From positions 2,728,001-2,792,000 of the forward strand of contig NZ_JACGWV010000001.1 in assembly GCF_014137995.1 (NCBI RefSeq): a stretch of 64,000 nt of DNA. The letters are read 5' to 3'. Numbering within the stretch: position 1 is the first letter of the stretch; every line of letters begins with the position of its first letter. The notes beneath the pieces are model-generated. The model made no database searches and was not told the DNA's origin. It was given only the letters and a program-made list of their open reading frames with translations. The position numbers and the translations under genes were made by a program. Shown here piece by piece: positions 36,640 to 57,377 of this stretch. The stretch is from Promicromonospora sukumoe (lineage in GTDB: Bacteria > Actinomycetota > Actinomycetes > Actinomycetales > Cellulomonadaceae).

Positions 36640-39066
36640 TCAGGGCGGCGGCGACCCCGACGGCACAGGGTCGGGCTCTCCCACGAGCACCGTCACCGTG
36701 ACGCCCAGGCGCAGCACGGTTCGTGCGGGCGGCGCGGTGCCGACGACCGGGGTCCGCGGCGACGTCCCCGCGATGTCCGGCACCACTTCGAAACCGGCGG
36801 ACTCCAGCTCGGCCAGCGCGGCGCCCAGCGTCATGTCGGCCACGGCGGGCACCGCGTTCCGGCCGCTCGCCACGGTGACCGCCACCGCGGCGCCGGACTC
36901 CACGATCCGGCCGGGCGCGGGATGCTGTTCGAGCACCGTCCCGGCGAGTTCGGCCGAGTCCTCGCGGGTCACGTCACCGAGCGTCAGCCCGACGGCGCGC
37001 AGCGCCTCCTGCGCCTCCGTGAGCGTGCCCGTCAGCACGGGCACCGCGGAACGGTCCGCCGACGGCGGTCGAGCCGTCGCCGTCGGCGTCCCGGAGGAGG
37101 TCGCCGACGGTGACGCACTCGGGGCCTGCGATGCGGCGCCACTGCTCGGCGAACCCGACGGCGAGGCAGACTGCGACGCGGTCGACGCCGAAGGTGACGG
37201 GCTCGCCGTCGACATCGGTGCCGGCGTGAGCGACACGGAACCGCCGGCACTCGGCGAGTCCCCCGCTCCGGCCTGCGGCAGACCGGGGGCCGCGACTGCC
37301 GCCCACACCGCCAACCCCGCCAGGAGCAGGGCGAGCGCCACCGCGCCGACGCCGGCGGCGCCGGCCCGGCGCGCGACGACCGGTGCCGCCCCGGGCCCGT
37401 CCTCGACCGGCGCGAGGTACGCGAGGTCGGCGGTCCGGCGCGGTCCGTCGCCGCTGCCGGGGCCCGGGTCACCGTCGGGGCGCAGCTCGCCCGGGATGTC
37501 TCCCGCAGTGCGCTCCTCGTTGCTGTCCCCCGGCCCGGTCTGTTCGCCCGGGCCCGCGCCCCGCGCCGAGGTGGTCAGACGTTCCTCGTCCGGAAACGTC
37601 CCGGCCCCGTTGATACCGCCCGCGCCCGCTCCGGCACCCAAGGTCGGGACGGCTCCCGACGACGCCACCACACCCGAGGTCGCCCCTACTCCCGAGGCCG
37701 TCGCCACGCCCGCACCACCAACCCCGCCGATACCCGCACCCAGTCCAGGCCCCGCAGCCACACCCAAACCCACACCAGCACCAGCACCAGCACCAGCACC
37801 AGCACCAGCACCAGCGAACCCGACCGACCCCGCGTCCGCCGTCGTCCCGGCTATCGCGGCCGTCCCGGTCGCCCCCGCCGTCCAGGCCGTCCGGCCGATC
37901 GCCTCCGCGAGCGCCGTGCGCATCTCGGCGGCGTCCCGAAACCGGCGGACCGGTGTCTTGTTCATGGCGCGCGTCACGACGCGGTCCAGGGCCCGGGCCG
38001 CGGGGGCCAGCGCGGACGGCACGGGAGGCGGCGCCGAGACGTGCGCGCTGAGCACCTGGGCGTCGGTGTCACGCGGGAAGGGCGGGCGCCCGGTGAGCAG
38101 GTAGTAGAGGAGCGCTCCCGCCTGGTAGACGTCGCCGGCCACGCGGACCGGCCGCCCCTGGGCCTGCTCGGGCGACATGAACTGGGGGTTGCCCACGACG
38201 GTTCGCGCGCCGTCCGCGCCCGGTGCGCTCGGCCGGCCGACGCCGGGCCCCGCCCGGCCGGAGACGACGGTGCGCCCCGGTCCGTGCGCCGCGCCGAGCA
38301 CGGCCGTCACGGCGGACCCGTCGGAGCCGGGTCCGGTCCGCAGCACGTTCTCGCCCACGCGGAGCACGTCGTGCCCGACGACGCCACGCCCGACGGCGCC
38401 GTTCCCGACCGTGCCGTTCCCGACGGTGCCGTCCCCTTCGCCACGCCCAACGGTGCCGTTCCCGACGACGGCACGGCCCACGGCGGTCCGCCCCGCGGCG
38501 TCGGCCAGGCCGAAGTCGACGAGCCGCACGTGCTCCGCCCGCAGCACCTCGCCGGGGGCCGCACCGTGGAGCAGCACGTTCGCCGGGGACACGTCGCGGT
38601 GCACCAGCCCCGCGGCGTGCGCGACGCCGAGCGCGGCCAGCACACCGTCGAGCACCGCGGCGGCCTCGGCCGAGGGCAGCGGGCCGCCGTCGGCGACCCG
38701 TTCGCCGACGCTGCCGCCGTCCACCAGGTCCAGGGCGATCCAGGCGAGCACGGTCCCGGCGTCGTCGTGGACGCCGGAGCGCCGCACCGCCCCGATGTTC
38801 GGGTGGCGCAGCTCCTGGGCGGCCCGGGCCTCGGCCAGGAACGCGTCGCGGGCGGCGGCGTCGGCGCTCAGGTGCGGGTGCAGGATCTTGACCGCGACCG
38901 GGGCCCCGGCAGCACCAGCAGCACCAGCAGCACCAGCAGCGCCAGCAGCGCCAGCACCAGCCAGGTCCTCCGCCGCGAACACCGACGCCGTCCCGCCCAC
39001 GCCGAGCAGGTCGCCGAGCTCGTACCGTCCGCCGAACGGCACGCCCGACGGCGACCCGTCCGTCAC
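36640..39066 (-). CDS. PASTA-domain Ser/Thr protein kinase coupled to pstB
   Basis: An 808-residue membrane kinase with a GTG start overlapping the pstB stop (GTGA). The kinase domain (about residues 14-335) has glycine loop [18 protein letters not shown] lysine, catalytic [11 protein letters not shown] (D158, N163) and VDFGLAD. The Lys of the usual HRDxKxxN is Ser160. A Gly/Val/Asn repeat (VGNGTVG) is inserted after the DFG segment. One transmembrane helix ([22 protein letters not shown] split about 545-570) leads to a Ser/Pro linker and two PASTA repeats at the C-terminus, which normally bind peptidoglycan. It probably links wall state or phosphate to phosphorylation of neighbours. Confidence 0.85.
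37773..37816 (-). repeat. hexanucleotide repeat in kinase gene
   Basis: About seven tandem ACCAGC units (plus-strand view) encode an alternating Ala-Gly run in the kinase juxtamembrane linker. Unit length is a multiple of three, so copy number changes would lengthen or shorten the linker without a frameshift. Confidence 0.75.
38905..38957 (-). repeat. short tandem repeat inside kinase N-lobe
   Basis: Nine-base CAGCACCAG-type units encode Ala-Ala-Gly repeats between the glycine loop and the VAVK lysine of the kinase. This is an unusual place for a flexible insertion and it could vary between strains. Confidence 0.7.
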
Positions 39067-40052
39067 CCGAACCGGCCGTTCACGTAGTCGTAGGTGCGCT
39101 CGTCCTGCGGCTCGGAGAACATGGCCTCCGTGTCGCCGTGCTCCACGATCGCGCCGGGCGTGCCCTGGGCCGCGAGGAAGAACGCGCACTGCTGGGACAC
39201 GCGCTGCGCCTGCTGCATGTTGTGGGTGACGATCACGATCGTCACCTCCTTCTGCAGCTCCACCATGGTCTCCTCGATGACGCGCGTGGAGGTGGGGTCC
39301 AGCGCCGAGCAGGGCTCGTCCATGAGCAGCACCTTGGGACGCACGGCCAGGGACCGGGCGATGCACAGGCGCTGCTGCTGGCCACCGGACAGGCCGCCGC
39401 CGGGCTGGGCGAGCCGGTCCTTGACCTCCCGCCAGAGGCCGGCCGAGGTGAGCGAGCGCTCCACCAGCTCGTCCTTCTCGTCCCGCGACGCGCGCACACC
39501 GGTGAGCTTGAGCCCGGCCACGACGTTGTCGTAGATCGACATCGCGGGGAACGGGTTCGGCTTCTGGAAGACCATGCCGATGTCCTTGCGGGCGTCCTGG
39601 ATCTTCTTCCGGCGGTCGTAGATGTCCTCGCCGTCCAGGCGCACCTCGCCGGCCAGCGCGGCGATCGGCACGAGCTCGTGCATGCGGTTGAGGATGCGCA
39701 GGAACGTCGACTTGCCGCAGCCCGACGGCCCGATGAGCGCCGTCACCTGGCCGGCCGGCATGGTCAGCGACACGCGCTCCAGCACCTTGTGCGACCCGAA
39801 CCACGCGGACACGTTCCGCGCGTCGAGCACCGACAGGGCGGCCTCCGGCCGCGGGACGGCGGGGGCCGGCGCCCCGGGCGGGGCCTCGGGTCCGACGGCG
39901 GGGCCCACGCCGGGGCCGACGCCAGGGCCGACGGCGGGCAGCGTGATGGTCCGTCCGACGTCGGCGGGCGCGGGGTCCGTGACGGTACCGGCGGCGGCAC
40001 TCGCGGTGCCGGCAGCACCTCCGGTCCCGCCGGTCTGGTTCTCCGTGGTCAT
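39063..40052 (-). CDS. pstB: phosphate ABC transporter ATP-binding protein PstB
   Basis: A 329-residue ATPase. Walker [11 protein letters not shown]-loop [16 protein letters not shown], signature [19 protein letters not shown], Walker [14 protein letters not shown] and the switch His in [12 protein letters not shown] are diagnostic of PstB. The N-terminus carries about 75 extra residues rich in Gly, Pro and Ala ([14 protein letters not shown]), absent from typical 250-260 residue PstB proteins. It energises phosphate import by PstC-PstA. It sits about 11 kb from them (pstS end to pstB start), after the surface-protein genes, and overlaps the PASTA kinase gene. Confidence 0.95.
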
Positions 40053-40063
40053 GACTGGTCCTC

Positions 40064-41104
40064 TCAGAGCAGGTTCGGCAGCGCGTCCATGACGATGTCG
40101 GCGCAGGTCACACCGAGCGCGAGCAGCAAGGGGACGCCGATCAGCCAGGCGTGCCACCGCCCCCACGACGTCCACAGCCACCACAGGGCGACGCCCGCGG
40201 CCACGAAGAGCACGAGCACGAAGAACGCGGTGAACCAGGCGCCGTCGTCGCCCGCCATCTCCCGTTCCTCGGTGGGCAGCGCGGGCTCGGCGAGCACCTT
40301 CGTGGGGGTCTCCTGCACGTCGGAGACGAGCTGCGCGTCCACGTGCAGCACGCCGGACGGGAACAGCTCGAGCCCGTCGGCGGTCATCAGCTCCAGACGC
40401 CCCTGCCCGACGGCGAGCGGCTCGGGCAGCGGGTCGCCCGCGCGGCGCAGGCCGAAGACCTGGAAGGTGTGCGTGCCCTGGCCGGTGGTCACGCGGATCT
40501 CGTCGCCGGGCACGAGCCGGTCCAGGGCGCCGAACGGCCCGCCGTAGGTGAGCTGGCGGCCCAGGACCACGGCGGTCCCGGCCTGTCCCGGCAGCACGGA
40601 GTCGCGCCGGTGCCCGGGGCCCGACCGGAGCACCCGCGAGGTGGAGCTCTCCGCCACCACCTCGGAGACGCCCAGCGCAGGGATCTCCAGGAGCGCGACC
40701 GGCGTGCCCGCCGGGACCAGGTCCCCGTTCAGGTCGAGCTGGCCCACCGGCGTCTCGGCCTTGGCCAGCGACGTCCGCAGCTCGTCGTACGCCAGCACCT
40801 GGGCCCGGTGGTGCTGCGCCGCCGAGAACAGCGCCACGTGCGCCACGAACGCGAGCAGCAGCATCGACACCGTGAGGATCGCGGCCCCCGCCCACCAGCG
40901 GGTGTCGCGCGGGACGGGCTGCCGGGGCGTCGCCGCGGCCACGGCCGCCGCGAGGCGGGCGGTACGACGCCGGGCGCCCCACGTGGTGGGCCCGACGGTG
41001 TTGGGCACGGCGTAGGGGTTCGACGGGTCGGCGGGCGCCGGGTTCGGGTTGTCCGGCAGCCCCTGGGCGTCCTGGTCCTTGGTGTCGGTCACGGGGTTGC
41101 TCAT
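40064..41104 (-). CDS. sortase-fold membrane protein without catalytic residues
   Basis: A 346-residue membrane protein. A transmembrane helix (about 70-93) is followed by a sortase-like domain (about 130-255): [29 protein letters not shown] and [16 protein letters not shown] are clear class E/D sortase segments. The catalytic His site reads LGRQ (R183 instead of His). The TLxTC site reads LELMTADG (A242 instead of Cys). Two C-terminal transmembrane helices follow (about 273-291 and 302-322). It cannot be a classical transpeptidase. I infer a scaffold that binds sorting-like tails of the neighbouring surface proteins. It lies 11 bases before pstB. Confidence 0.8.
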
Positions 41105-41952
41105 CAGGCCGCCACCCCCGCGCTCCCGGCCACCGGCAGGCCGGCGCCGGGCGCCCGCATCAGCCGCACCACGTACCAGCCGCCCACCCCGGCGCCGGCC
41201 GCCCCGAGGCCGCCGCCGGTCCACCAGGCCCAGGCCGGGATGCCGCCGCCGGCCTGCGAGCCGGGCGCCGCCACCAGTACCTGGGCCACCGCGACCTGCC
41301 CGCACCAGCCCGTGAACTGCACCGCGCGCGGGCCGGCGGCCACCTCGTCCGGGAGGGTGACGGCGGCCTCGACCACGCCGCGGCCGTCCGCGCGCGTCGA
41401 CTCCACCCGCTGCGGCGCGGTGAACAGCACGACCTGCACCCGCTCGCCGTCCTCGAAGCCCTTCGCGCGCACCACCACCTCCTCGCCCGGGAGGCGGACG
41501 TCGTCGTCGAGCGTCGCCGGGTCGCCGTCGGCCGCGGGCTCGGTCGGCACGACGGGCTCGGCGGGCACGCACTTCCCGGACGGGCCGGGCGTGCTCGGGT
41601 CGTCGTCCGCGGGATCGCCACCGCCCCCGCCCGAGCCGCCTCCGCCCGCACCCCCGGCACCACCTCCACCGCCGACGCCGCCCCCGGCGCCCCCGCCCCC
41701 ACCCGCGCCGTTCCCGTCGCTCGCACCGGGCCGGGTCGGGTCCCCGGAGGGGTCGCCCGGGTCGTCCGTCGGCTCCCCGGTCGGGTCCTCCGTCGGCTCC
41801 TCGGTCGGCTCCTCCGTCGGGTCGACGTCGGGGATGGTCACGCTGATCCCGGTGTCCTCGCCCTCGTCGGCGTACCCCGCGCTGACCGGGCCGAGCACCA
41901 GCGCGGCGGCACCCAGCAGGACGACGGCGAGCAGCACGCGAGCCGCGCTCAT
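41104..41952 (-). CDS. TEEP-repeat, glycine-rich anchored surface protein
   Basis: A 282-residue exported protein. A signal peptide (1-28, ending SAGYADEG) is followed by a [17 protein letters not shown] repeat, a long poly-Gly linker (about 80-112) and a small folded beta domain (about 125-235, with two Cys in GKCVPAE and FTGWCGQ that may pair). A C-terminal transmembrane helix (about 237-262) ends in a short tail. There is no LPxTG motif. Its ATG overlaps the DUF916-like gene stop, and its stop overlaps the sortase-like gene. It is probably displayed on the cell surface. Confidence 0.75.
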
Positions 41953-43154
41953 CGCAGGGCCTCGCTCTCACGGTGTACGTCGCCGGGCGCCCCGGGCGCG
42001 CCCGCAGCCGGCCCCGCCAGCGCCTCGGCCCGGACCCGCTCGGTGTACGCGGCGAGGTCCTCGGCCAGCAGCCGCCGGGACCGGCGGCGCCACACCACGA
42101 CCGCCCAGACACCCCCGGCCACGAGCAGCACGATCGCGGCGGTCGGCCACGGCACGGCCCAGGCCTGCGCCGACGCGCGCGCCGGGGCGGGCAGCACGTC
42201 GTCGGGCCCCGAGCCGGTGCGCTCGACGGCGACGGGCGTCACGGTGACGTCGGCGAAGAGGAGCAGCGCGGGCACCACCCCGGGCACCTCGGCGACGACG
42301 TGCGCCGTGCCGCCGGGCACCAGGTTCCGCACCGGCTCGACGTCGACCGCGCCGAGGTCGATGCCGAACGGCCCGCTCACCCGGACCTCGGGCTCGCCGG
42401 AGATGCGCGTGTTGCCGGTGTTGGTCAGGTCGAACCCGGCGGTCGCGGTGCCGGCCCCGAAGGGGTTGGCCACGCCGTCGAACCCGGCGACCGTCCCGGT
42501 CACGGTGAGCTCGGGCTGCACCGGCCCGTCGACGCGCAGGTAGATCCGCGTGCCGACGCGCTGCTCCACCTGCACGGCCGAGCCGTCGCCGTCCGCCGCG
42601 CGCGAGCGGAAGGAGGCGACGATGCCGGCGGCGTGGTCGCCGGGCGTCGCGTCGTGCGGCACCGTGATGGTGAAGGGCACGTCGGCGCGGGCGCCGGGCT
42701 CCAGCTCGACGACGGCGCCGACACCGGCCGCGCAGGTCGCCTCGGCGTCGTCCCCCGAGTCGGGGCAGACGGCGGGGCCGGAGTCCACCGCGGTCCAGGA
42801 CCCGAGGCCGGTCGAGGCCTGGTCGGCGGCGACCAGCGTGAACGCGCCGGTCCGGTAGTCCGTGGTCGCGTCCGAGGCGTAGACCCGGAAGGTCGCCGGG
42901 CGGTCCGAGAAGTTGGACACCGACACCCAGTCGCTCACGGTCGTGCCGGGCTCGACGTCGTAGGTGAGCTCGGTGCGCCCGTCCGGCCCCTCCGGGCCGG
43001 CGGGCTGGACGCTCCACGTCACCTCGCGGTCGTCGACGGCGAGGACCGGCACCGCGGGCACCGGCACCGCGTGCGCGGACGCGACCGGGCCGGCGAGGGC
43101 GGCGAGCACCCCGGCGGCGAGCACGCCGCGCGCGAGAGGTCTTGGGACGGTCAT
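41949..43154 (-). CDS. DUF916/WxLIP-like surface membrane protein
   Basis: A 401-residue exported protein: signal peptide 1-28, then VTWSVQPAGPEGPDGRTELTYDVEPGTTVSDWVSVSNFSD in pieces typical of the DUF916 (WxL-interacting, peptidoglycan-binding) domain. A second immunoglobulin-like domain follows (about 200-320, GFDLTNTGNTRISGEP). A single transmembrane helix (about 340-360) and a basic cytoplasmic tail end the protein. In Firmicutes DUF916 proteins tie WxL surface proteins to the wall. A WxL-like protein is encoded nearby. A PHO box lies about 165-185 bases upstream. Confidence 0.78.
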   Translation of the reverse strand: MTVPRPLARGVLAAGVLAALAGPVASAHAVPVPAVPVLAVDDREVTWSVQPAGPEGPDGRTELTYDVEPGTTVSDWVSVSNFSDRPATFRVYASDATTDYRTGAFTLVAADQASTGLGSWTAVDSGPAVCPDSGDDAEATCAAGVGAVVELEPGARADVPFTITVPHDATPGDHAAGIVASFRSRAADGDGSAVQVEQRVGTRIYLRVDGPVQPELTVTGTVAGFDGVANPFGAGTATAGFDLTNTGNTRISGEPEVRVSGPFGIDLGAVDVEPVRNLVPGGTAHVVAEVPGVVPALLLFADVTVTPVAVERTGSGPDDVLPAPARASAQAWAVPWPTAAIVLLVAGGVWAVVVWRRRSRRLLAEDLAAYTERVRAEALAGPAAGAPGAPGDVHRESEALR

Positions 43155-43316
43155 CGTGAGGTTCTCCAGACCCGGTCGCGGCCCCTGCCGGACCGCGGGA
43201 TGCATGCCGGCGCCGCTGCTCCGCGCGGTGCCGGTCCCGACACCCGAATCATCGTGACGGGCGCTCGGGTCGGGCAAACATCGGGGAGGCGGAGAGCACG
43301 TTGCGGCCCGGCGACG

Positions 43317-43338
43317 CCGAGGTGGACACCAGGTAGAC
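43317..43338 (-). promoter_or_regulatory. PHO box upstream of DUF916-like gene
   Basis: Minus-strand 11-mers GTCTACCTGGT and GTCCACCTCGG are adjacent direct repeats matching the GTYCAYC-type PhoP box. A weaker third unit lies one turn further downstream. Confidence 0.65.
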
Positions 43339-43444
43339 GCCGCTCCCCCGGCCGCAGATTCAGCGCTCTGACCTGCGGTTTTACGGGGAACGGCGGCCCG
43401 TCGCCGGGCGGCTCGTCGCAGGTGTCGGGCAGCAGGCCCGCCCA

Positions 43445-44792: not shown

Positions 44793-44946
44793 GAATCCTG
44801 CCTTTGTCGTAGAATTCACCCCAAAGGTCACAGCGACCTGTGCCCTGACGGGCACCGCCCCTCACCCGGGTCGCACCCCGGGTGAGGGGCATCCTCGTGC
44901 GGGCGGGGACGGTACCCGCACGGGAATCCTTGGGCCCGCGGCCCGG
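44793..44946 (-). other. structured intergenic module, copy 1
   Basis: In minus-strand order it folds into four hairpins: CGTGCGGG/CCCGCACG (44896-44922), a perfect 14-base-pair stem (44857-44890), GTGCCC-GTCA-GGGCAC (44840-44855) and AGGTC/GACCT (44825-44839). TTTGGGG follows, then the downstream ATG. The first two probably terminate the upstream gene. The last two form the leader of the downstream gene. The same order recurs at 47663-47841. Confidence 0.7.
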
Positions 44947-47662: not shown

Positions 47663-47841
47663 GGCATGCCTTTCCATCTAGGGTCTCCCCCCAAAGGTCG
47701 CGTGCGACCGTGTGTCCTTGCGGACACGGCCCCTCACCCTGGTTTTCGCGCCCCGGGTGGGGGGCCTTCCACGTGCGGGCGGGGGTGGTGCCCGCACGGA
47801 AACCTGTGTGGAGTTGTGCTCGCCGTCGAGCGGTCCGGGGA
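47663..47841 (-). other. structured intergenic module, copy 2
   Basis: The same hairpin order as the module at 44793-44946: CGTGCGGGC/GCCCGCACG (47772-47798), a 12-pair stem with one mismatch (47728-47766), GTGTCC-GCAA-GGACAC (47712-47727) and GGTCGC/GCGACC (47696-47709), then TTTGGGG before the downstream start. Loop and stem bases differ while pairing is kept, which suggests selected RNA structure. Confidence 0.7.
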
Positions 47842-50532
47842 TCAGCCCGTCAGCTCGCGGCGGCGCATGAGGAACGGCGCGCCGACCATGCCGGCCAGCC
47901 CCGCCACGAGGGTGCCGCCCAGCGCCACCGACGCCGACAGCGGCGCCGTGTCCTCGGTCGCGGCGGCCTCGTTCCGGGTCGTGGAGCCGTCGCCCGGCCC
48001 GGCGCTCGCTCCGGGGTCGGACGACGGTCCGCCGTCCGCGGGGTCGTCGCCGTCGACGGGGACCGGCACGGTGGCGCCGGTGTCGTCCGGGTCGCCGGTC
48101 CCGCCGTCGTCGTCCGGGCCGCCGGGCCCGCCGGCCGGGTCGTCGCCGCCCGGGGGCGCGTCGTCCTCCTCCGGCGGGTTGCGCAGCAGGTCGGCGAGCG
48201 CGTGCGCGCGGTCGACCTGGTCCGCGGTGAGCGGCACGTAGCCCTCGGGCAGCCCGCCCCGCGCGCCGGTGTGCACGTTCCCGTCGCCCGCGGCGTGGTC
48301 GAGCAGTCCGGCGTAGTCGGTCCGCGCGTCGGCGGTGAGGGTCTCCGACCCCAGGTTCACGACGCCGTACAGCGTGGTGGACAGCGGGTACGCGCCGGCC
48401 GGCAGCGCGCCGGGGTCGTTCACCGCGACGCCCGTGCGCCGGTCGACCCGCTGGGCCTTGACCGCCGCCGCGACCGTCGTGTCGTCGTAGGCGACGAACT
48501 CGCGGGCGGACTCCACGCTGCCGGCGTCGGTGACCTCGGGAAGCGGCAGCGCCAGCCGGGCGGTGTTCAGGCCGTACAGCTCCGCGGCGGGGGCCGTCAC
48601 CGGGCCCAGCGCCAGGCGGCCCAGCGTGCTCCCGGCCAGGTCCGGCGCGCCGACCGACCAGACACCGGTGGTGCCCACCCCGACGAACACGTTGGGGTCC
48701 CAGGAGAAGGTCAGCCGGCGGTCCGACCGGAGCACCCGCGCGGCGTTCGTGTCGAAGGAGCCCGAGTACGGGGAGTAGGCCGTCGAGTCGAGCTGGAGGC
48801 CGCGGTTCTCGGCGTCCGCCACGCTCTTGCTCGGCGCCACCGAGCGGTCCGCCTTGGGGAACGTGTCCAGCGGCGCGCCCAGCAGGTCGGTGCCGCCGCC
48901 GGCCGCGTCGGGGTGGTCCGGCGGCAGGTAGTAGCGGTTCACGGTGTTGTCCCAGGGGTCCGGGGTCCCGCGCAGGAACTCGACGGCGTCGGCGTCGGCC
49001 AGCACGTACTCCCACAGCAGCCGGATGGCGTCGTCGCCCTGCGGCCCGACCACCAGCCAGACGGCGCGGCCGCTGACGGGGTGGAGCTCGGGGTTGCCGA
49101 GCGCCTGCCACTCCTCGTCGTCGGCGATCGTGTCGCTGCCGAGGAACTCGTACGACTCGCCGACGATCGACGACCCCCACGCACCCGCGACCTGCGGCAC
49201 GTCATAGCGGAACGACTGGGTGAGCAGCTTCGCGACCAGGCGCGGCGTCAGCCGGACGTCGGTGTACACCGGTCCGGCGGAGTTCTCCGCGATGTTCCGG
49301 GGGCCGTCCGCGACGAACCCGATCGCGACCGACGTGTTGGCCAGGGGCGCGTACCGCAGGTCCGCGTCGTCCAGCAGCTCCGGGTCGGCGGGGCCGATCG
49401 TGTCCGGGGTCAGCGGCTCCGACACGGCGGCCAGGTCGGCCTGACCCGTGAGGAGCTGGGAGCGCGCCAGGTCACCGGAGTTCGTGGTCAGGCTGAACGT
49501 CGCGCCGTCGTCCCCCGCGCACAGCGCCGGCTGCCACGACGACGACGCCTCGGCGAACAGCTCGCTGCCCACGACGCGCCGCTCGGCGGAGCCGGGCGGG
49601 CAGGACTGGTACGGGTTGTCGAAGTCCAGGGGCACGACCACCCGGTTGGCCCAGAAGGTGCAGCGCGCGGCGACCGGCGAACCCTTCTGCTCGAACGAGA
49701 CCTCGCCGAACGCGCCCGGCGAGAGCACGTCCATGCAGGGCGTGCCGTCGGCGAGCGAGCCCGAGTGCGTGCCGCGCGGCACCACCACGAGCCAGCAGCG
49801 CTCGCCGGCCGCCTCCGGGTCGCCGCACCCGAGGTAGGGCTGCGCGGCGCTGGTCTGCACGACGAAGCTGGCCTTCGCGGTCCCGTCCGCCGCGACGGGC
49901 ACGATCGGCAGCTCGTTCGACGTCGACGCCACGTAGAAGGCGCCGACCCCCGCGTTCGCGCCCGCGCCGTCCGGCGGCACCACCGGGGCGCTGACGTCGC
50001 CGCCGACGCTGCGGAACACCGTGCCGTCCCGGCCCGCCGTCCAGCTCGTGACCTGCCCGAGCAGCTCGGACGCCTTGGACGTGCTCCCGCCGACGTCGTT
50101 GGCGGAGTAGCCGCCCCACTGGCACGTCTCCGCGAAGTCCGCGGCGTTCGGGTCCGCGCCCCAGCACTGCATCACCTGCAGGAAGTTGTTGGCCCCGTTC
50201 GGCTGCCCGCGCAGCACGGTGGGGCTCATCCCGGACGCGGTGACCGTCACGGCCTGGTCGGTCAGGTGCTCGGTCTGCGACACCGTGACCTCGAGGTTCT
50301 TGAAGTCCGCCCAGTGCCCGGACCCGTCGGCGTCGTCGGCCAGGCCCGAGCGGTCGGGCTGGAACCGCTGCAGGTCACCGTTGCCGCCGGCCCACCGCAC
50401 CGTCACGGCCGAGTCGGTCCCCTCGCCCGCCGCGCGGGCGCCCGACGGCGCGTACAGCGCCACGAGCCCGCCGGCCGAGGCCAGCGCGACGACCGCGCCG
50501 AGTGCGCTGATCGTGCGGCTGCGGAGCTTCAT
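47842..50532 (-). CDS. large PstS-like surface-anchored protein
   Basis: An 896-residue exported protein with signal peptide 1-34. The middle has PstS-like features: DLAAVSEPLTP, LTPRLVAKLLTQSFR, GSDTIADDEEWQALGNPELHPVSGRAVW (split), DRRLTFSWDP and PAGAYPLSTTLYGVVNLG. The protein is more than twice the size of PstS, with an added Cys-containing N-terminal region (CWGADPNAADFAETCQWGGYS, about residues 115-135). A Gly/Pro/Asp linker (about 790-850) leads to a C-terminal transmembrane helix and a basic MRRRELTG tail. It is likely a membrane-tethered binding protein reaching through the wall. PHO-box repeats precede it. Confidence 0.75.
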   Translation of the reverse strand: MKLRSRTISALGAVVALASAGGLVALYAPSGARAAGEGTDSAVTVRWAGGNGDLQRFQPDRSGLADDADGSGHWADFKNLEVTVSQTEHLTDQAVTVTASGMSPTVLRGQPNGANNFLQVMQCWGADPNAADFAETCQWGGYSANDVGGSTSKASELLGQVTSWTAGRDGTVFRSVGGDVSAPVVPPDGAGANAGVGAFYVASTSNELPIVPVAADGTAKASFVVQTSAAQPYLGCGDPEAAGERCWLVVVPRGTHSGSLADGTPCMDVLSPGAFGEVSFEQKGSPVAARCTFWANRVVVPLDFDNPYQSCPPGSAERRVVGSELFAEASSSWQPALCAGDDGATFSLTTNSGDLARSQLLTGQADLAAVSEPLTPDTIGPADPELLDDADLRYAPLANTSVAIGFVADGPRNIAENSAGPVYTDVRLTPRLVAKLLTQSFRYDVPQVAGAWGSSIVGESYEFLGSDTIADDEEWQALGNPELHPVSGRAVWLVVGPQGDDAIRLLWEYVLADADAVEFLRGTPDPWDNTVNRYYLPPDHPDAAGGGTDLLGAPLDTFPKADRSVAPSKSVADAENRGLQLDSTAYSPYSGSFDTNAARVLRSDRRLTFSWDPNVFVGVGTTGVWSVGAPDLAGSTLGRLALGPVTAPAAELYGLNTARLALPLPEVTDAGSVESAREFVAYDDTTVAAAVKAQRVDRRTGVAVNDPGALPAGAYPLSTTLYGVVNLGSETLTADARTDYAGLLDHAAGDGNVHTGARGGLPEGYVPLTADQVDRAHALADLLRNPPEEDDAPPGGDDPAGGPGGPDDDGGTGDPDDTGATVPVPVDGDDPADGGPSSDPGASAGPGDGSTTRNEAAATEDTAPLSASVALGGTLVAGLAGMVGAPFLMRRRELTG

Positions 50533-50593
50533 CGAGGTTCTCCGTTCGACTCGTGCCCTGACGCCGGAATCATTGCGGGGACGCCGCGGGAAA

Positions 50594-50777: not shown

Positions 50778-50915
50778 GCCGGGCCCCTCCGTTCGCAGGG
50801 GGGTCCCGACGGCGCGCCGAGCAACCCGGCACCCGTCGGGAGGAATTACTTTCACCCTTTTCCACGAAACAGCCGGATGCATTTATCGCACCATTCCCTG
50901 AACAGCCGCAGCGGG

Positions 50916-50933
50916 CCCCGCAAATGCGCGGGG
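50916..50933 (-). terminator. hairpin after pstS
   Basis: CCCCGC and GCGGGG pair around a six-base loop, about 16 bases past the pstS stop. No T-tract follows on the minus strand. It may partly separate pstCAS from the downstream genes. Confidence 0.5.
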
Positions 50934-50948
50934 AAAAGGCGTCCGGGA

Positions 50949-52712
50949 TCACGACCCGGCACCCCCAGGAGCGGGAACAGGGAGGCCCCTGCGGGCACGC
51001 CGGCCGACGAGCGGCGGCAGCACCGCGACGAGGACCATCACGGCGCCCAGGGCGACCATCACGAGCCGCGGCCAGAGCCCGCCGTCGGCCACGGGGAGCG
51101 ACTGCGGCGTCGCCGCCACCAGCACGGGCTCCGCGCCGTCGGCCACCACCTCGGCGTCGCCGCCGCCGTCCGTCGCGGGGCCCTCCGTCGCGCCGCCCGG
51201 GCCGCCGTCGTCGTCCGGCCCGCCGGACCCGCCGTCGTCCCCCGGGCCCGCGTCCCCCTGACCGCCGCCGCCCGCTCCCCCGGCGCCGGGCCCGCCCGGG
51301 CCGCCGCCGTCGTCCTCGCCGTCCCCGCCACCGCCCGACGGCGCGGTCGGCGTGTCCTTGGACCCGCCCGTTCCCGTGCTGCACTGCGTCGGGCCCTGCT
51401 TGTCGCAGGCGGGCGGGTAGGGCGCCTCCTCGGCCAGCCGGTTGGTGCCGTCGGGCGAGAACGTCGGGTTGTTGCAGTCGTTGATCCCCTTGATCACGGG
51501 GTCGCCGCCGGGGATCTTCTGGATCTGCGTCTGCCCGGCCTTGACCAGGTTGATCGGGAGCGGCGAGTAGCCCAGCGTGTCGGCCTGCTGCTGCCCCTCG
51601 CACAGGAAGTACGCGCCGAAGTCGGCGAGGGTCAGGCCCTTGTCCAGGGAGAACCCGGCGTCCTGCGACGTGGGCAGGATGATGTACGAGTAGCTGGACA
51701 GCGGGTACACGCGCCGGTCGGAGAACGAGTAGACGTCCCGCAGGTTCTGCGTGAGGTAGTCCGGCGAGCTCCGGTCCTCGTTGATCCGCGCCTTGAGGAG
51801 CGCCACGGCGACGTTCGCCGCCGTCGGCTCCGTGTAGTAGCCCGCCCGGTTCAGCATCTTGGCCACCGGGAAGCCGGCGTTGAGCGCGTAGGAGTACTCC
51901 ACGAACGTGATCGCCCCCACCGCGTGCGACTGCGCCACGTACCCGGCGACGCCGTTCGACCCGGCGCGCGACACGAAGCCCGAGCCCGGCGCCACCGGGT
52001 AGTTCGACGTCACGCCGCAGTGCCCGTTGATCAGCGGGCGGTTCACCTTGCCGCAGTACGCGTCCCAGGCCCGGCTCTGCTCCTGGCGCATCCAGATGGA
52101 GAACTGGGCGGTGGCGCCCGAGCCGTCGGAGCGCACGACCGGCACGATCGGGATGCCCGGCAGGGCGAGCTGCGGGTTGTCCTTCTTGATCTTCGGGTCG
52201 TCCCAGCGGGTGACGGTCCCGGTGAAGATCGCCGCGATCGTGGCGCCCGAGAGCCGCAGGTTCGTGACGCGCTTGCCGCCGACCTGCAGGTTGTACATGA
52301 ACGCCGTGCCGCCCGCGACGATCGGCATGTAGGCGAACGCGCGGGCCGGGCGCGCGTCGCCCTCGTTGGAGTTGGCGATCGCGTACGGGATCTCGCTGAC
52401 GCCGAAGTCCGCCGTCCCGTTCGCGAAGCTGTTGCGGCCCTGGGTGGAGCCCGACTCGGAGTAGGTGATCTTCCACTGGTAGTTGGACCAGACGTTGCGG
52501 ATCCACTGCTGCAGCGCGTTGGCCGACCAGGTGGAGCCCGCGCCGTTGATCGGCGCGTGCACCTTGCCGACGGCGGCGGGGGCCACGTCCCGGGGCAGGT
52601 CCCGCTGGGCGGCCTGCGCGGGCACGACGGCGCCCGCGACCACGAGCAGCACGCCGAGCCCGGCGATCAGGGCGCGGACGCGCAGCCCGCCGCGCGCGGA
52701 GGTGGCGGTCAT
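50949..52712 (-). CDS. pstS: phosphate-binding protein PstS with C-terminal membrane anchor
   Basis: A 587-residue protein (typical PstS is 320-370). The signal peptide ends in PAQAAQ with no lipobox. The PstS fold covers about 45-430: INGAGSTWSANALQQWI, GSTQGRNSFANGTADFGVSEIPY (split), FTGTVTRWDDPKI, VVRSDGSGATAQFS (phosphate-binding loop) and AITFVEYSYALNAGFPV. A Gly/Asp-rich linker (about 445-530) and a C-terminal transmembrane helix replace the lipid anchor. Its start overlaps the pstA stop (ATGA). The order pstC-pstA-pstS, with the binding protein last, is unusual. Confidence 0.9.
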   Translation of the reverse strand: MTATSARGGLRVRALIAGLGVLLVVAGAVVPAQAAQRDLPRDVAPAAVGKVHAPINGAGSTWSANALQQWIRNVWSNYQWKITYSESGSTQGRNSFANGTADFGVSEIPYAIANSNEGDARPARAFAYMPIVAGGTAFMYNLQVGGKRVTNLRLSGATIAAIFTGTVTRWDDPKIKKDNPQLALPGIPIVPVVRSDGSGATAQFSIWMRQEQSRAWDAYCGKVNRPLINGHCGVTSNYPVAPGSGFVSRAGSNGVAGYVAQSHAVGAITFVEYSYALNAGFPVAKMLNRAGYYTEPTAANVAVALLKARINEDRSSPDYLTQNLRDVYSFSDRRVYPLSSYSYIILPTSQDAGFSLDKGLTLADFGAYFLCEGQQQADTLGYSPLPINLVKAGQTQIQKIPGGDPVIKGINDCNNPTFSPDGTNRLAEEAPYPPACDKQGPTQCSTGTGGSKDTPTAPSGGGGDGEDDGGGPGGPGAGGAGGGGQGDAGPGDDGGSGGPDDDGGPGGATEGPATDGGGDAEVVADGAEPVLVAATPQSLPVADGGLWPRLVMVALGAVMVLVAVLPPLVGRRARRGLPVPAPGGAGS

Positions 52713-53989
52713 CGCTCTGCCTTCTTCTCGTCGGTCCCTGCGGCGTCGTCCGGCGAGCCGCCGGACGGTGGTGGTGCGGCGTCCCGGAACCGGGCAGCGA
52801 CCCGGGCCGAGGCACGCTGTGCCCGGCGGGCGCCGGCCGGGCTCAGGACGCCCGCGCCCTTGCCCCCGATCAGGCGCGCGAGCAGGAAGAGCACGAACAC
52901 GAGCACCATGAGCACCGCCGCCGCGCCGAACCCGCGGGCGATCTGCGAGGGCTCGGGGCTCTTGACGAGCGTGAAGGTGGCCAGCGGCAGCGAGACCATC
53001 GGCCCGTCGAACGGGTTCCAGTTGTAGTAGGTCGTGTACCCGGCGACGAGCAGGATGGGGCTGGTCTCCCCGATGCCGCGCGCGGTGCCCAGCACGATCG
53101 CCGTCATGAGGCCCGACTTGCTGGTGGGCAGCACCACGTTCCAGATGGTGCTCCAGTGGCTGGCGCCCATCGCGAACGACGCCTCCTTGAGCGTCGCCGG
53201 GACGAGGCGGAGCACGACGTCGGCCGACCGGATGATGATCGGCAGGATCATGATCGTGATCGCCAGCGACGCCGCGAAGCCGGACTTGGGCGCGCCGAGG
53301 ATCAGGATGTACGTGGCGAGGATGAACAGCCCGCACAGGATGGACGGCAGGGCGGTCATCGCCTCGGTCACGGTGCGCACGATGCGCGTGAACGGGCTGG
53401 GGAACTCCGCCAGGCACACGGCGGTCAGCAGGCCCAGCGGGATCGAGATGAGCAGGGCGAACGAGATCATGACCAGGGTGCCGACGGCGGCGTGCGCCAT
53501 GCCGCCGACGGTCAGCGGGTCCAGGGGTCCGGCCATCGACAGGTCCTGCGTCCAGAAGTTGACCTGCGTGAACGCCGGCCGGCCCTCCGACAGGGCGAAG
53601 ACCACGACCACCACCAGCGCGAGCAGCAGCACGACGGCGCCCGAGTGGACGATCACGCCCGCCACGCGGTCCTTGATGGTGATGCGGTCGTCGTCGAAGC
53701 CGATCAGCACCACGAAGAAGCCGAGGAACAGCAGGTAGGCGATCAGCACGAACGGCAGGGCGCCCCGGAACGGCAGCACCTGGGTGAACAGCCACGCCGT
53801 CGCCGCGATGCCGGCCGCGGCCGCGCCGACCACCCGCAGCACGTCCTCGCGGCGCAGGCCGGACAGCTCGCGGCGTACCTCGGGGCCCGCGGGCGTGATG
53901 CGGCCGTCGCGGCCGGGCAGGTGGGTCCGGGTGAACCGGCCGGGCCGGTCGGCGCGGCGGGCGCCGTGGGCGGTGTCGGTGACAGTCAT
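52709..53989 (-). CDS. pstA: phosphate ABC transporter permease PstA
   Basis: A 426-residue permease, longer than the usual 280-300 because of about 70 N-terminal cytoplasmic residues, two or three extra N-terminal helices (about 50-130) and a 50-residue polar C-terminus. The core holds LISIPLGLLTAVCLAEF, TEAMTALPSILCGLFIL, and the EAA-type loop LKEASFAMGASHWSTIWNVVLPTSKSG (split), then GTARGIGETSPILLVAGYT, all characteristic of PstA. It forms the channel with PstC, whose gene ends seven bases upstream. Confidence 0.93.
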   Translation of the reverse strand: MTVTDTAHGARRADRPGRFTRTHLPGRDGRITPAGPEVRRELSGLRREDVLRVVGAAAAGIAATAWLFTQVLPFRGALPFVLIAYLLFLGFFVVLIGFDDDRITIKDRVAGVIVHSGAVVLLLALVVVVVFALSEGRPAFTQVNFWTQDLSMAGPLDPLTVGGMAHAAVGTLVMISFALLISIPLGLLTAVCLAEFPSPFTRIVRTVTEAMTALPSILCGLFILATYILILGAPKSGFAASLAITIMILPIIIRSADVVLRLVPATLKEASFAMGASHWSTIWNVVLPTSKSGLMTAIVLGTARGIGETSPILLVAGYTTYYNWNPFDGPMVSLPLATFTLVKSPEPSQIARGFGAAAVLMVLVFVLFLLARLIGGKGAGVLSPAGARRAQRASARVAARFRDAAPPPSGGSPDDAAGTDEKKAER

Positions 53990-53996
53990 GGTGTCC

Positions 53997-55133
53997 TCAG
54001 CTCGCAGCGCCCGAGCGGGAACGCTGGATGATGAATCCGGCGGCGAAGTTGATCAGCATCGTGATCAGGAACAGGACCAGTCCCGCGGCCATCAGGGCGG
54101 AGACCTCGAAGTCGTTGGCCTCGCCGTGCTTGAGCGCGATCAGCGAGCTGATCGAGTTGGTCCCCGTGCTCAGCACCTGCCAGTTGATGACGAACAGCGG
54201 GCTGATCACCAGGTAGACGGCGATGGTCTCCCCCAGCGCCCGGCCCAGGCCGAGCATGGTGCCGCCGATGATCCCGCCGGTCCCGAACGGGTAGACGACG
54301 TTGCGGATCACGCCCCACTTGCTGGCGCCCAGCGCGAGCGCCCCCTCGCGTTCCCCCACGGGCGCCTGGTCGAACACCTCGCGCATGATCGCCGCCGAGA
54401 TCGGCGCGACCATCATCGAGACGATCAGGCCCGCAAGGATCGCCGACGCCGTGAACACCGTCGGCGTGGCGAGCGGGTCGTCGGGGTCGAACTGGGACAC
54501 CGCGAAGACCGGAATCCAGCCGAAGTACGTGGAGACCCACTCGGCGACGGGCAGCAGGTTGCCCTCCAGCCAGTAGGCGCCCCACAGGCCGTAGACGACG
54601 CTCGGGATCGCCGCCATCAGGTCGATCACGCCGATCAGGAACCGCTTGATCCCCGCGGGCGCGTACTCGGTGATGTACGTGGCGGTGACGAGCGCGAGCG
54701 GCACGGCCACGCTGATGGCGGTCAGGCCGATGACGACGGTCCCGAACAGCACGGCCGCGATGCCGAACCGACCCGAGTTCGGCTCCCAGTCCTGCTCGGT
54801 GACGAAGTCCCAGCCGGCGACGTCGATCGCCTGGGCGCCCCGCCACAGCAGGAACACGCCGACGAGCGTCATGATCAGGAGCACCAGCGTGCCGCCGGAG
54901 TGGGCCGCCGCGCGGAACGTGAGGTCCTGCCAGCCGCGCCGGCTGACCAGCGGGCGGGTCGGGTCCACGAGCGCGTCGCGCGGGGCGGGCGACGTCTCCA
55001 GGCCGAGCTCGCGCAGCTCGGTGCGCTGCCGCTCCAGCTCGGCGACCGCGGCGTCCCGCGGGGCGGCCTGGTCGCTCTCAGGTCGGGGGCGTTCGCGGTG
55101 CTCGGGCACCGGTTCGCCGGGGTCGGGGCTCAT
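53997..55133 (-). CDS. pstC: phosphate ABC transporter permease PstC
   Basis: A 378-residue permease. A cytoplasmic N-terminal extension of about 60 residues (rich in Arg, Pro and Glu) precedes the first helix. Core motifs: LVTATYITEYAPAGIKRFLIGVIDLMAAIPSVVYGLWG (split), the EAA loop GALALGASKWGVIRNVVYPFGTGG (split) and GLGRALGETIAVYLVISP, as in PstC. It is the first gene of the pstC-pstA-pstS unit, with a PHO box 87-130 bases upstream. The ATG at 55133 follows AGGAGACC at good spacing. Confidence 0.93.
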   Translation of the reverse strand: MSPDPGEPVPEHRERPRPESDQAAPRDAAVAELERQRTELRELGLETSPAPRDALVDPTRPLVSRRGWQDLTFRAAAHSGGTLVLLIMTLVGVFLLWRGAQAIDVAGWDFVTEQDWEPNSGRFGIAAVLFGTVVIGLTAISVAVPLALVTATYITEYAPAGIKRFLIGVIDLMAAIPSVVYGLWGAYWLEGNLLPVAEWVSTYFGWIPVFAVSQFDPDDPLATPTVFTASAILAGLIVSMMVAPISAAIMREVFDQAPVGEREGALALGASKWGVIRNVVYPFGTGGIIGGTMLGLGRALGETIAVYLVISPLFVINWQVLSTGTNSISSLIALKHGEANDFEVSALMAAGLVLFLITMLINFAAGFIIQRSRSGAAS

Positions 55134-55219
55134 CGTGAGGTCTCCTGTCGGGCTCCCGGCACGGACGGTGGCATCATCGTCAGGCGCCCGTCCGGCGGGC
55201 AAACAACGCGGACGCGGCG

Positions 55220-55263
55220 AACAGGTTGACGGACGGCGAGGTCGAGATGGACGCGAGGTGGAC
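55220..55263 (-). promoter_or_regulatory. PHO box array upstream of pstC
   Basis: Four consecutive minus-strand 11-mers: GTCCACCTCGC, GTCCATCTCGA, CCTCGCCGTCC and GTCAACCTGTT. Units 1, 2 and 4 match the PhoP direct-repeat consensus and the third is degenerate. They also cover the possible ATG (55247) of the divergent kinase gene. Confidence 0.75.
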
Positions 55264-56716
55264 GACGGCGGAGCCGGCGGACGGCATCGGCGACAACCCG
55301 CGGTTCGCGGCGTCCCCGGCCGAGGTGCGGCGGGCCGCGCGCGCCGCCCGGCGCGGCCGGCGGGGCGCCAAGGACCACCCGAAAGGAGGGGCCCTCACGC
55401 TCCGCCTGACCCGCTGGGTGGGGCGCGACGTCGTCCTCGTCGCCTTCGTCGCCAACATCGCCGCCTACCTCGGCGCGCTCGCGCTGCTCGACGGGACCGG
55501 CGCCGTGCACACGGCGCAGACCGAGGACTGGCGCGTGGCCGCCGTCGTGCTACTGGTCTCCTTCCAGGCGCTGTGGCTGCACTGGGTCCAGCGGCAGGCG
55601 TTCGGCACGCTGTGCGCCTCCCTGGTGCTCTGGTTCGGCGCGCTGCTGATCGGCGGCGCGGACCCGCTCCTGCTGCAGCCGGGCGTGCTGCTCGCCGTGT
55701 TCTGCTACGCCGCGGGACGGCCCGGCCGGTGGCGCGGTGCCGCCGTCGTGCTGTTCGTCGTCGCGACGGCCGGGGTGCTGCTGGCGGACGAGGCGCTGCA
55801 CCCGACGCCCGGCGCGCCGGGCTGGCGGGACCCGGCCATGGTGGTGGCCCTCGTGCTGGAGGCCGTCGGCGTCGTCGCGGTGCCCGCCCTGCTGGGGGCC
55901 TGGTACGCGCAGCTGCGCGACCGCGCCGAACGCATCGCCGCGCTGGCGCACGAGATCGCCGGCCGGGAGGCGCACCGCACCGCCGACGCCGTCACCGCCA
56001 CGCGGCGCACGCTGGCGCAGGAGCTGCACGACACGTCGTCGGCCCACCTGGCCGCGATCCTCACGCTGAGCACCGCGGCCGAGGCCGGCGCGGCGGCGGG
56101 CGGCACGCCCGACCCGCGGCTGATCGCGCAGATCCGGGACGAGGGGGAACACCTCTACCAGGGGTTCGAGCGGATGGTCTCCCGCATGCGGCACGACGAC
56201 CGCACCCTGGCGGAGACCCATCAGCCCGGCCCGGCGGCGGGCCAGCACACCGTGGCGCAGATCGCCGAGTTGGCCGCCGGGCACCAGCGGGTCGCCGAGG
56301 TGCCCGTGACCCTGCGGCACGACCCCGGCCTCGCCGAGATCGACCAGCGCCTCGGCCCCCTGCGCAGCCACACCGCCTACCGGGTGGTGCAGGAGGCGCT
56401 GAGCAACGCGCGCAAGCACGCCGCCGGCACCGGCGTGACCGTCGTCCTGGAGGACGACGGCAGGAGCCTGCTGCTGCGCGTCGAGAACGAGAGTTCACCC
56501 GAGCCGGGGCCGCCGAACCGTGGTGGCGCCGTGGTCGGACCGCATAGCCTGAGCCTCGGTTACGGGATCGAGGGCATGCGTGACCGGCTCGCCGCCGTGG
56601 GCGGCAGCCTGCGCACCGGCCCTCGGCACGGCGGAGGATGGGCCGTGCAGGCTCTCCTGCCCCATCCCCCGCACCGGACCGGCACCACCGACGGCAGGCA
56701 CGCTACGGAGGGGTGA
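55247..56716 (+). CDS. NarX/LiaS-type sensor histidine kinase divergent from pstC
   Basis: About 489 residues from the ATG at 55247, but the start is uncertain: an in-frame TTG lies at 55226 and a GTG at 55418, and the first ATG falls within the PHO box. From about residue 60, five to six transmembrane helices form a membrane sensor with no large external domain. HisKA_3 has the phospho-acceptor His in LAQELHDTSSAHLAAIL. The HATPase domain has VVQEALSNARKHAAGTG and a GYGIEGMRDRLAAVGG glycine box. It is coupled to the NarL-type regulator four bases downstream. A link to the pst locus is suggested by the shared promoter region. Confidence 0.85.
   Translation: MDARWTTAEPADGIGDNPRFAASPAEVRRAARAARRGRRGAKDHPKGGALTLRLTRWVGRDVVLVAFVANIAAYLGALALLDGTGAVHTAQTEDWRVAAVVLLVSFQALWLHWVQRQAFGTLCASLVLWFGALLIGGADPLLLQPGVLLAVFCYAAGRPGRWRGAAVVLFVVATAGVLLADEALHPTPGAPGWRDPAMVVALVLEAVGVVAVPALLGAWYAQLRDRAERIAALAHEIAGREAHRTADAVTATRRTLAQELHDTSSAHLAAILTLSTAAEAGAAAGGTPDPRLIAQIRDEGEHLYQGFERMVSRMRHDDRTLAETHQPGPAAGQHTVAQIAELAAGHQRVAEVPVTLRHDPGLAEIDQRLGPLRSHTAYRVVQEALSNARKHAAGTGVTVVLEDDGRSLLLRVENESSPEPGPPNRGGAVVGPHSLSLGYGIEGMRDRLAAVGGSLRTGPRHGGGWAVQALLPHPPHRTGTTDGRHATEG
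55374..55392. repeat. conserved upstream element copy 3
   Basis: ACCACCCGAAAGGAGGGG, matching the copies near 43445 and 50758. Here it falls in the 5' part of the divergent histidine kinase frame; AAAGGAGG could alternatively act as a ribosome site. Confidence 0.6.
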
Positions 56717-56720
56717 CCCC

Positions 56721-57377
56721 GTGATCACGACGCTGGTGGTCGACGACGCCGGGAGCGTCCGCCGGTCGCTGCGGCTCCTGCTCGACACCACGCCCGACAT
56801 CCGCGTGGCCGGCGAGGCGAGCAACGGCGTCGACGCCGTCCGCCTGGCCCGCGCGCTGCGGCCCGACGTCGTGCTCATGGACCTGCGCATGCCGGGCGGC
56901 GGCGGGCTGGACGCCATCGCCGCGTTGAGCGGTCCCGGCGTCGAGCGGCCCGTCCCCGTCCTGGTGTTCACCACGTTCCACCTGGACGAGTACATCTACG
57001 GGGCGTTCGAGCGCGGCGCCGTCGGCTACCTGCTGAAGAAGAACCCCGGCGACATCCCGGCGGCCGTCCGCGCCGCGGTCAACGCCAGCGCGCTCCAGTC
57101 GCCCGCGGTGCGCGAGCGGCTGATCGCCGAGTACGCCCGCAGCAGCGGCCCGGCGGGCGCCGCCCCGGCGGACAGCATCGCCGGGCTGCTCACCGACCGG
57201 GAGCTGGAGGTGGTCGCCGCCCTGGCCGAGGGGCTGAGCAACAAGCTCATCGCGGCCCGCCTCAACCTCGGCGAGAACACCGTGAAGTGGCACATCGGCA
57301 ACATGCTCGACAAGACCGGCACCCGCGACCGCACCCAGCTCGCGATCTGGGCGTACCAGCACGGGCTCAACCCCTGA
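56721..57377 (+). CDS. NarL-type response regulator
   Basis: A 218-residue regulator with a GTG start. The receiver domain has D8/D9, D54 in VVLMDLRMPGGGG and Lys in YLLKKNPGD. The LuxR-type helix-turn-helix (about 155-212) reads LTDRELEVVAALAEGLSNKLIAARLNLGENTVKWHIGNML (split). It is the partner of the preceding kinase. It overlaps the convergent P-type ATPase gene by 11 bases. Its targets are unknown; PHO boxes are bound by OmpR-type PhoP, not by NarL-type proteins, so this system may add a second input to the pst promoters. Confidence 0.92.
   Translation: MITTLVVDDAGSVRRSLRLLLDTTPDIRVAGEASNGVDAVRLARALRPDVVLMDLRMPGGGGLDAIAALSGPGVERPVPVLVFTTFHLDEYIYGAFERGAVGYLLKKNPGDIPAAVRAAVNASALQSPAVRERLIAEYARSSGPAGAAPADSIAGLLTDRELEVVAALAEGLSNKLIAARLNLGENTVKWHIGNMLDKTGTRDRTQLAIWAYQHGLNP

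Follow-up and report, generated by a model that had tools for sequence, protein, structure and literature searches.

A conserved actinobacterial locus joins a second set of Pst transporter genes to PstS-like proteins and a catalytically dead sortase-fold protein

Why should the genes of a Pst-type transporter be parted by genes for surface proteins, and do the two sets belong together? The question is raised by a locus of Promicromonospora sukumoe, contained in a stretch of 64,000 nucleotides from contig NZ_JACGWV010000001.1 (the window), in which pstC-pstA-pstS and pstB flank about 11 kb of genes that mostly encode exported proteins. A preliminary description, made from the letters of the window alone, had recorded this split by same-strand surface genes with gene assignments and coordinates that proved correct apart from the small frame and a WxL label, and the overlaps it had pointed out at 39063, 41104, 41949 and 52709 follow from the gene starts and stops. 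The present analysis shows that the genes form a conserved unit and that this unit is a second Pst-type system beside the canonical one. With a probability of about one half, it is a wall-spanning ATP-binding cassette (ABC) importer with several binding proteins, which would bring a phosphate-like ligand to a second, specialised PstCAB transporter. The core consists of the following genes, the locus counts being those of the next paragraph.

53997-55133, minus strand: pstC, permease; TIGR02138 at 240.7 bits (cut-off 196.45); 53/53 loci with enough flank
52709-53989, minus strand: pstA, permease; TIGR00974 at 195.2 bits (cut-off 193.45); 53/53 loci
50949-52712, minus strand: PstS1, with a C-terminal hydrophobic anchor; PF12849 at 122.8 bits, TIGR00975 at 191.4 bits (cut-off 205)
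47842-50532, minus strand: S2, 896 residues, PstS-like but degenerate, with an extensive N-terminal part and a hydrophobic anchor at the C terminus; identified by hhalign to PstS1, a PDB match to PstS and linkage
46475-47662, minus strand: S3, secreted PstS-like binding protein; PF12849 in 8/23 family members (best 9.5e-11)
40064-41104, minus strand: pseudosortase, with three hydrophobic segments; PF04203 at 52.2 bits; catalytic His replaced by Arg in 61/61; C-terminal LPNL
39063-40052, minus strand: pstB, ATPase; TIGR00972 at 345.6 bits (cut-off 343.2)

A search of 84,980 species genomes with an S2 alignment (A1) found relatives in 500 of 528 matched stretches. The best 80 loci, which lean towards those most like the window, were kept and their genes mapped by iterated profiles of the window genes; 53 had enough flank to be counted and 27 were too short. 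The genes pstC, pstA, pstS1, S2, pseudosortase and pstB are all present in 53/53, S3 is present in 52 (the exception, L014, being without an S3 match), and the order pstS1-S2-S3-pseudosortase-pstB is the same in 52/53. The source genera include Promicromonospora, Myceligenerans, Microbacterium, Cryobacterium, Agromyces, Aeromicrobium, Cellulomonas, Curtobacterium, Micromonospora and Streptomyces, and conservation of the order across several families is far beyond chance. That the genes make up one system, as the preliminary description had held, is thus borne out as far as linkage is concerned. The pst genes are the ends of the conserved unit, because the flanks of 38 hand-picked loci (72 upstream and 71 of 75 downstream open reading frames) show no recurrent family beyond protein kinases. 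These occur in 5/71 downstream frames, a count that is probably one too low, given a kinase mapped after pstB in L039; other families reach at most 4/71 downstream and 3/72 upstream. The four unscanned downstream frames are the locus pstB in L025 and L036, one opposite the kinase gene in L012 and one just after pstB in L039.

Linkage was tested both ways with 394 genomes sampled evenly across the class. Of these, 53, about one in seven, have S2, 48 have a pseudosortase above 200 bits and 47 have both. At 50 of the 60 S2 places the pseudosortase follows downstream on the same strand, at most 12 kb away, and at 50 of the 61 pseudosortase places S2 lies upstream. Among the 10 unlinked S2 places, two (G100, G105) are near contig ends and a third (G384) is 354 bases from one, and five genomes with such places (G077, G100, G132, G119, G041) carry the pseudosortase on another contig; of the 11 unlinked pseudosortase places, four are in genomes without an S2 match (G052, G173, G086, G096). 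The gap between the two genes in the 50 linked places is at most 1.2 kb in 27 and 2.4-7.1 kb in 23. A compact form (L097-L105) keeps the core and has the pseudosortase directly after S2, followed by a divergent S3 match (34-166 bits); pstB comes first in L101 and L102. No S3 match was found in L106. In one divergently arranged locus (L108, in G173), perhaps an early-branching form, S2-pseudosortase-S3 and pstC-pstA-pstB-pstS1 occupy opposite strands. Two or more S3 matches per locus in L061 and L115 suggest that the outer binding protein diversifies.

The preliminary description knew of no described system with such a gene set, and none was found in searches of the open-licence PMC library, subscription journals being mostly outside this scope; the set is conserved in Actinobacteria and apparently undescribed. 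Named relatives of S2 are annotated as hypothetical or PBP-domain proteins; the closest protein, at 99% identity, comes from P. sukumoe.

The unit is not the only Pst-type transporter of its host. A single rearranged phosphate operon is ruled out by a complete canonical pst cluster elsewhere in the same genome, where two PstS together with PstC, PstA and PstB are encoded on contig 2 (1052.8-1058.1 kb). The same was examined in 30 genomes hand-picked among 56 that are S2-positive (the 53 of the class-wide sample, own genome included, plus G001, G008 and G016). A separate canonical PstB of 360-386 bits lies away from the locus in 30/30, and the same genomes carry a further PstB of 329-351 bits that by its coordinates adjoins S2 in most of them; in G137 the locus-type PstB is on another contig. 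In a quick PstB tree, the 75 locus PstBs fall on one side of a branch with a Shimodaira-Hasegawa-like approximate likelihood ratio (SH-aLRT) support of 84, and the canonical PstBs fall on the other side, 29/30 of them in one group, with the split of all labelled rows weakly supported (44) and nine long-branch rows of other ABC proteins included. Like the PstSCAB importer, the locus combines PstC, PstA and PstB equivalogs with a protein of the PstS family in a single unit. It differs from that importer in its coexistence with a canonical PstB, in two additional PstS-like products, one of them without the phosphate loop, in the presence of the pseudosortase and in locus promoters that mostly lack a clear PHO box. 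For annotation, this calls for caution, as PstB and PstC matches here do not denote the housekeeping phosphate importer.

What the transporter might carry is best approached through its binding proteins. PstC, PstA and PstB exceed the phosphate equivalog cut-offs and PstB has intact Walker A, LSGGQ and Walker B motifs on inspection by eye, whereas PstS1 falls short of its own cut-off. Asp56 of E. coli PstS recognises protonated phosphate. In PstS1, with E. coli residue numbers, the Asp56 equivalent is Glu in 71 rows, the window included, Asp in 4 and a gap in 3 of the 78 rows (71/75 readable), and the Phe11 equivalent is Trp in 75/75 readable rows. A regular-expression search found the SD motif at the place of Asp56 in 10/10 canonical PstS listed from 8 regions. 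Retained in PstS1 are Ser38 (75/75 readable), Arg135 (76/76), Asp137 (75/76), Ser139 (75/76) and Gly140 (76/76). Because PstS1 thus keeps the Arg/Ser/Gly pocket, its ligand is likely an oxyanion or a phosphorylated compound.

Two further PstS-like proteins had been proposed, and both assignments are supported, although the window copies of S2 and S3 match no Pfam family. The C-terminal part of S2 aligns with the PstS1 of the locus over most of its length (hhalign 95.7%), and only its last, C-terminal lobe matches M. tuberculosis PstS1 in the PDB (E 9e-7). S2 has lost the R-x-D-G-S-G (phosphate) loop, and 2/27 of its relatives reach PBP_like_2, the best at 8e-4. For S3, the assignment comes from the PBP_like_2 (PF12849) matches in its family, in which GSDTT, R..S..G, RSS and GSG.R are invariant in 23/23; a PDB match of S3 at E 0.34 was dismissed as chance. 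All four long copies of S3 scanned (Cellulomonas, Frondihabitans, Microcella, Curtobacterium) have at their C terminus the Big_3_5 domain that is also present in the accessory proteins Ig1 and Ig2. By a hydrophobicity scan, PstS1 (551-569) and S2 have C-terminal anchors, the sortase-fold protein has three hydrophobic stretches and the DUF916 protein has two, both in its C-terminal third; S3, Ig2 and the acidic proline-rich repeat protein TEEP have an N-terminal stretch alone, and Ig1 has none above threshold.

The sortase-fold protein is catalytically dead, as the preliminary description had stated. In SrtE1 of Streptomyces coelicolor, catalytic roles are assigned to His251, Cys320 and Arg329 (PMC5148588). 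When the 61 locus proteins, window included, are aligned with an active sortase encoded in L014, the catalytic His is Arg in 61/61 and the catalytic Cys is Ala in 54, Gly in 6 and Thr in 1. The catalytic Arg may be lost as well: its likely column is replaced in 60/61, but the alignment is gapped there and a column seven residues on holds Arg in 28/61. The best NCBIfam match is class_E_sortase, at 69 bits below a cut-off of 160. From class E sortases such as SrtE1, the protein also differs in two further hydrophobic segments, the LPNL C terminus and its place within an ABC transporter operon. Conserved new segments comprise a GHRRD-like motif, GR, TGQG and the C-terminal LPNL, and this LPNL is nearly invariant and closes the protein, beyond the final hydrophobic segment (window 40064-40080). 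Pseudoenzymes whose fold is kept over such distances are most simply understood as scaffolds, and if this holds here, the sortase fold would have gained a role without catalysis.

On the favoured reading, a wall-spanning importer, secreted S3, with Ig-domain partners that are fused to it in some genera, would capture a tetrahedral oxyanion or phosphorylated ligand outside the wall. Membrane-tethered S2, devoid of the ligand loop, and the pseudosortase, unable to cut or join, would together form a receptor that docks loaded S3. From there, membrane-tethered PstS1 would pass the ligand to PstC-PstA and PstB would power its uptake, presumably inwards. If true, this would show how a binding-protein transporter can collect its ligand beyond a thick wall. 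A bolder version is put forward tentatively, at distinctly less than even odds: the unit might represent a new class of wall-crossing uptake machine of monoderms, in which S3 shuttles ligand to a dead-sortase/dead-PstS receptor and thence to a private PstCAB, loosely comparable in role to a TonB receptor, and in which S3 output is set in part of the group by a riboswitch-like RNA, its P1 loop base-pairing with the sequence ahead of the ribosome-binding site.

The RNA in question is a structured leader present in two copies in the window.

47670-47814, minus strand: leader RNA copy 1, before S3; R1 149.9 bits, R2 135.6 bits (models built partly from the same sequence)
44800-44938, minus strand: leader RNA copy 2, before Ig2; R1 137.5 bits, R2 123.1 bits (models built partly from the same sequence)

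Both leaders, of about 140 nucleotides, have aligning counterparts at the corresponding two positions of P. panici (L012) and Myceligenerans (L011). The own genome contains two covariance-model matches at E up to 0.001, both in the locus (150 of 4,145 candidates scored). At E up to 0.01, model R2 gives 42 matches in the 75 sources searched, 14 of the matched sequences having built the model. Thirty-one are sense full-length matches in 28/75 sources (L008 and L012 among these resemble one species), which their coordinates place ahead of S3 or, for three species from two genera, ahead of Ig2; of the rest, ten are opposite-strand copies of hairpins and one (L030:3116, E 0.009) lies elsewhere. Among the 75 sources R2 found none in Streptomyces, Micromonospora, Cellulomonas or compact loci, and none in L160. 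In 296 genomes of the class, only the own genome matched at 1e-6, a result of little weight under strict filters that also missed some S2-bearing genomes.

The fold is supported by covariation: in an alignment fitted to the model (A6), 23/40 pairs are two-sided versus 10.7 in shuffled and 3-7 in slid alignments. When 16 loci are aligned freely with MAFFT (A7), RNAalifold by itself predicts pairing between the P1 loop and a stretch that precedes the ribosome-binding site of S3. This pseudoknot helix is 82.5% paired versus 30-49% when slid and its covariation score is reached by 0/500 shuffles, with its numbers of two-sided pairs and pair types within the shuffle range. By duplex energy, 413/2000 permutations are as good with 12 sequences and 2/2000 with 20; energies alone being insufficient, the pseudoknot was accepted only from the energies and the free alignment jointly. 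No Rfam family matches the window at gathering thresholds or positions 36600-57400 at E up to 1, and L027, L030 and L036 at E up to 1 yielded one tRNA only. The leader, present in part of the group, is thus a structured RNA absent from Rfam and a new candidate regulatory RNA. It resembles riboswitches and other leader RNAs in having hairpins and, close to a single gene's ribosome-binding site, a pseudoknot, yet it is placed between two operon genes. Lying just upstream of the S3 ribosome-binding site, the pseudoknot might set S3 expression apart from that of the other operon genes, in response to whatever the leader may sense. As to the S3 start itself, leader copy 1 extends past the first ATG (47677), and the ATG at 47662, behind GGAAAGG, is likelier.

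Several observations weigh against the wall-spanning importer. S3 aligns only weakly with PstS1 by hhalign (57.7%). Genomes G170 and G095 each have two locus copies and one locus-type PstB, leaving one copy without a listed PstB; in G095, copy L114 has no pstB after the pseudosortase. The Ig, DUF916 and TEEP parts are optional, and the leader RNA was found in only 28/75 loci. It was not found in L160 (G001) either, whose S2 is 84% identical to that of the window. There S2, its end missing, is continuous (around 7878) with an S3 whose start corresponds to residue 30 of the window copy and which lacks the signal peptide, Ig1 and Ig2 are 15 bases apart (10512-10527), and both leader-bearing gaps are absent, which may reflect genuine loss or misassembly at strong hairpins.

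The alternative that survives best, though still unlikely, is that the unit extends the capture of inorganic phosphate as a starvation machine switched by PhoP at low phosphate. It could account for the equivalog matches of PstC, PstA and PstB and for the four pocket residues kept in PstS1, and it draws on a promoter module shared within the window.

55173-55267, minus strand: promoter module copy in the intergenic region between histidine kinase gene and pstC; it covers the first codons of the histidine kinase frame
43248-43342, minus strand: second copy of the promoter module, ahead of the DUF916 gene; 75% identical to the pstC copy across 96 bp (E 3e-11)

L160 likewise has two copies, directly before pstC and before DUF916, and the recurrence of one module at both places in the window and in L160 also backs the view of a single unit. 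In L011 and L012, the second copy lies before DUF916, whereas the first is found where the histidine kinase gene has its 5' end, at a distance of 1.7-1.9 kb from pstC. The module carries GTCCA repeats spaced by 11 nucleotides, and therefore control by a PhoB-like regulator is possible in the family of the window. PHO boxes were scored with a Streptomyces consensus for upstream regions against 60 shuffles each. The canonical pstS regions beat 60/60 shuffles in 6/6 cases, whereas among 13 locus regions outside the window a clear box stands before pstC in one: L155 beats 60/60, with a box pair that equals the canonical ones, L086 with a weak pair is matched by 1/60, and the rest are matched by at least 4/60. 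In the five genomes with both regions tested, 4/5 locus promoters have no box. The scores of 18.8 for the window locus promoter (matched by 3/60) and 19.3 for its own canonical promoter (4/60) carry little information, since the consensus is weak for this genus. A phosphonate-binding ABC set (PF12974 binding protein, permease, ATPase) at 31290-33941 on the minus strand, about 2.7 kb past the PASTA kinase gene, would fit the starvation machine as well; its ATPase lies near 32185-32877, and a frame of 696 residues without a Pfam match stands between. Against it are the canonical PstB in 30/30 genomes, the missing boxes and the Glu at the place of Asp56, so that inorganic phosphate under starvation control is not favoured. 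Of the earlier interpretation, the conserved unit that joins pst and surface genes therefore stands, but its phosphate responsiveness is not supported, the promoter evidence being uninformative for the genus of the window itself.

A somewhat more doubtful alternative is that the unit assembles a surface structure, with PstCAB energising or sensing the assembly of an S3/Ig coat and the pseudosortase acting as chaperone for surface proteins. It would make sense of the signal sequences, the C-terminal hydrophobic anchors, the pseudosortase, the S3-Ig fusions and the DUF916 and Ig proteins found in many loci. These proteins and their neighbours in the window are as follows.

44947-46323, minus strand: Ig1, Ig-domain protein (accessory); PF16640 at 41.6 bits
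43929-44792, minus strand: Ig2, Ig-domain protein (accessory); PF16640 at 48.9 bits
43478-43801, minus strand: small open reading frame outside the conserved system; no Pfam match at E up to 0.01, window only among the mapped loci
41949-43151, minus strand: DUF916/WxLIP-like protein (accessory); PF06030 (WxLIP_PGBD) at 28.1 bits (cut-off 27.3); 25/53 loci
41104-41952, minus strand: TEEP, acidic proline-rich repeat protein (accessory); PF04886 repeat at 23.1 bits, below the cut-off of 26.2; 29/53 loci

PstC and PstA are, however, importer-type permeases and PstS1 keeps a ligand pocket, and of the 53 complete loci 28 lack DUF916 and 24 lack TEEP. The counts of 48 and 45 of the 53 loci for the Ig proteins are probably too high owing to S3-fused Ig domains. 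With the WxL/WxLIP and csc clusters of Firmicutes (PMC10599100, PMC1534035), the locus has in common a DUF916 protein that is hydrophobic near its C terminus and adjoining secreted proteins; it differs in that DUF916 is optional, that the genes are coupled to a transporter and that a Pfam scan of ten locus proteins (E up to 0.01) showed neither a WxL nor a DUF3324 domain. Ig1 was among those without a WxL domain in the Pfam search, which removes the WxL-like label it had been given, and the absence of any Pfam match leaves the proposed DUF6966 identity of the small frame unsupported.

Less probable again is a signalling complex, in which transporter and binding proteins would serve as the outside sensor of an adjoining two-component system or PASTA kinase.

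36640-39066, minus strand: PASTA Ser/Thr kinase (optional neighbour); PF00069, PF03793; at least 11/53 loci
55226-57377, plus strand: histidine kinase and LuxR-type response regulator (optional neighbours); in 4/53 and 6/53 loci, respectively

In the window the two-component genes diverge from pstC, the kinase gene overlaps pstB and the promoter module of pstC recurs before DUF916, all of which would suit a sensor. The counts, of which that of the PASTA kinase is a lower bound as its gene can lie beyond reach, nevertheless rule out both as parts of the core, and the flanks hold no other recurrent family. The joint sensing of phosphate and wall polymer, proposed earlier, is hence not a conserved function of the unit. 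That unrelated genes merely lie side by side has next to no probability, being refuted by the linkage counts and by an order kept in 52/53 loci across several families.

Two minor observations concern the surroundings of the unit. Ig1-like and DUF916 genes follow pstB, outside the unit, in L064, L076 and L087, and an open frame of about 550 residues lies between the histidine kinase gene and pstC in L011 (3573-5300) and L012 (3605-5300).

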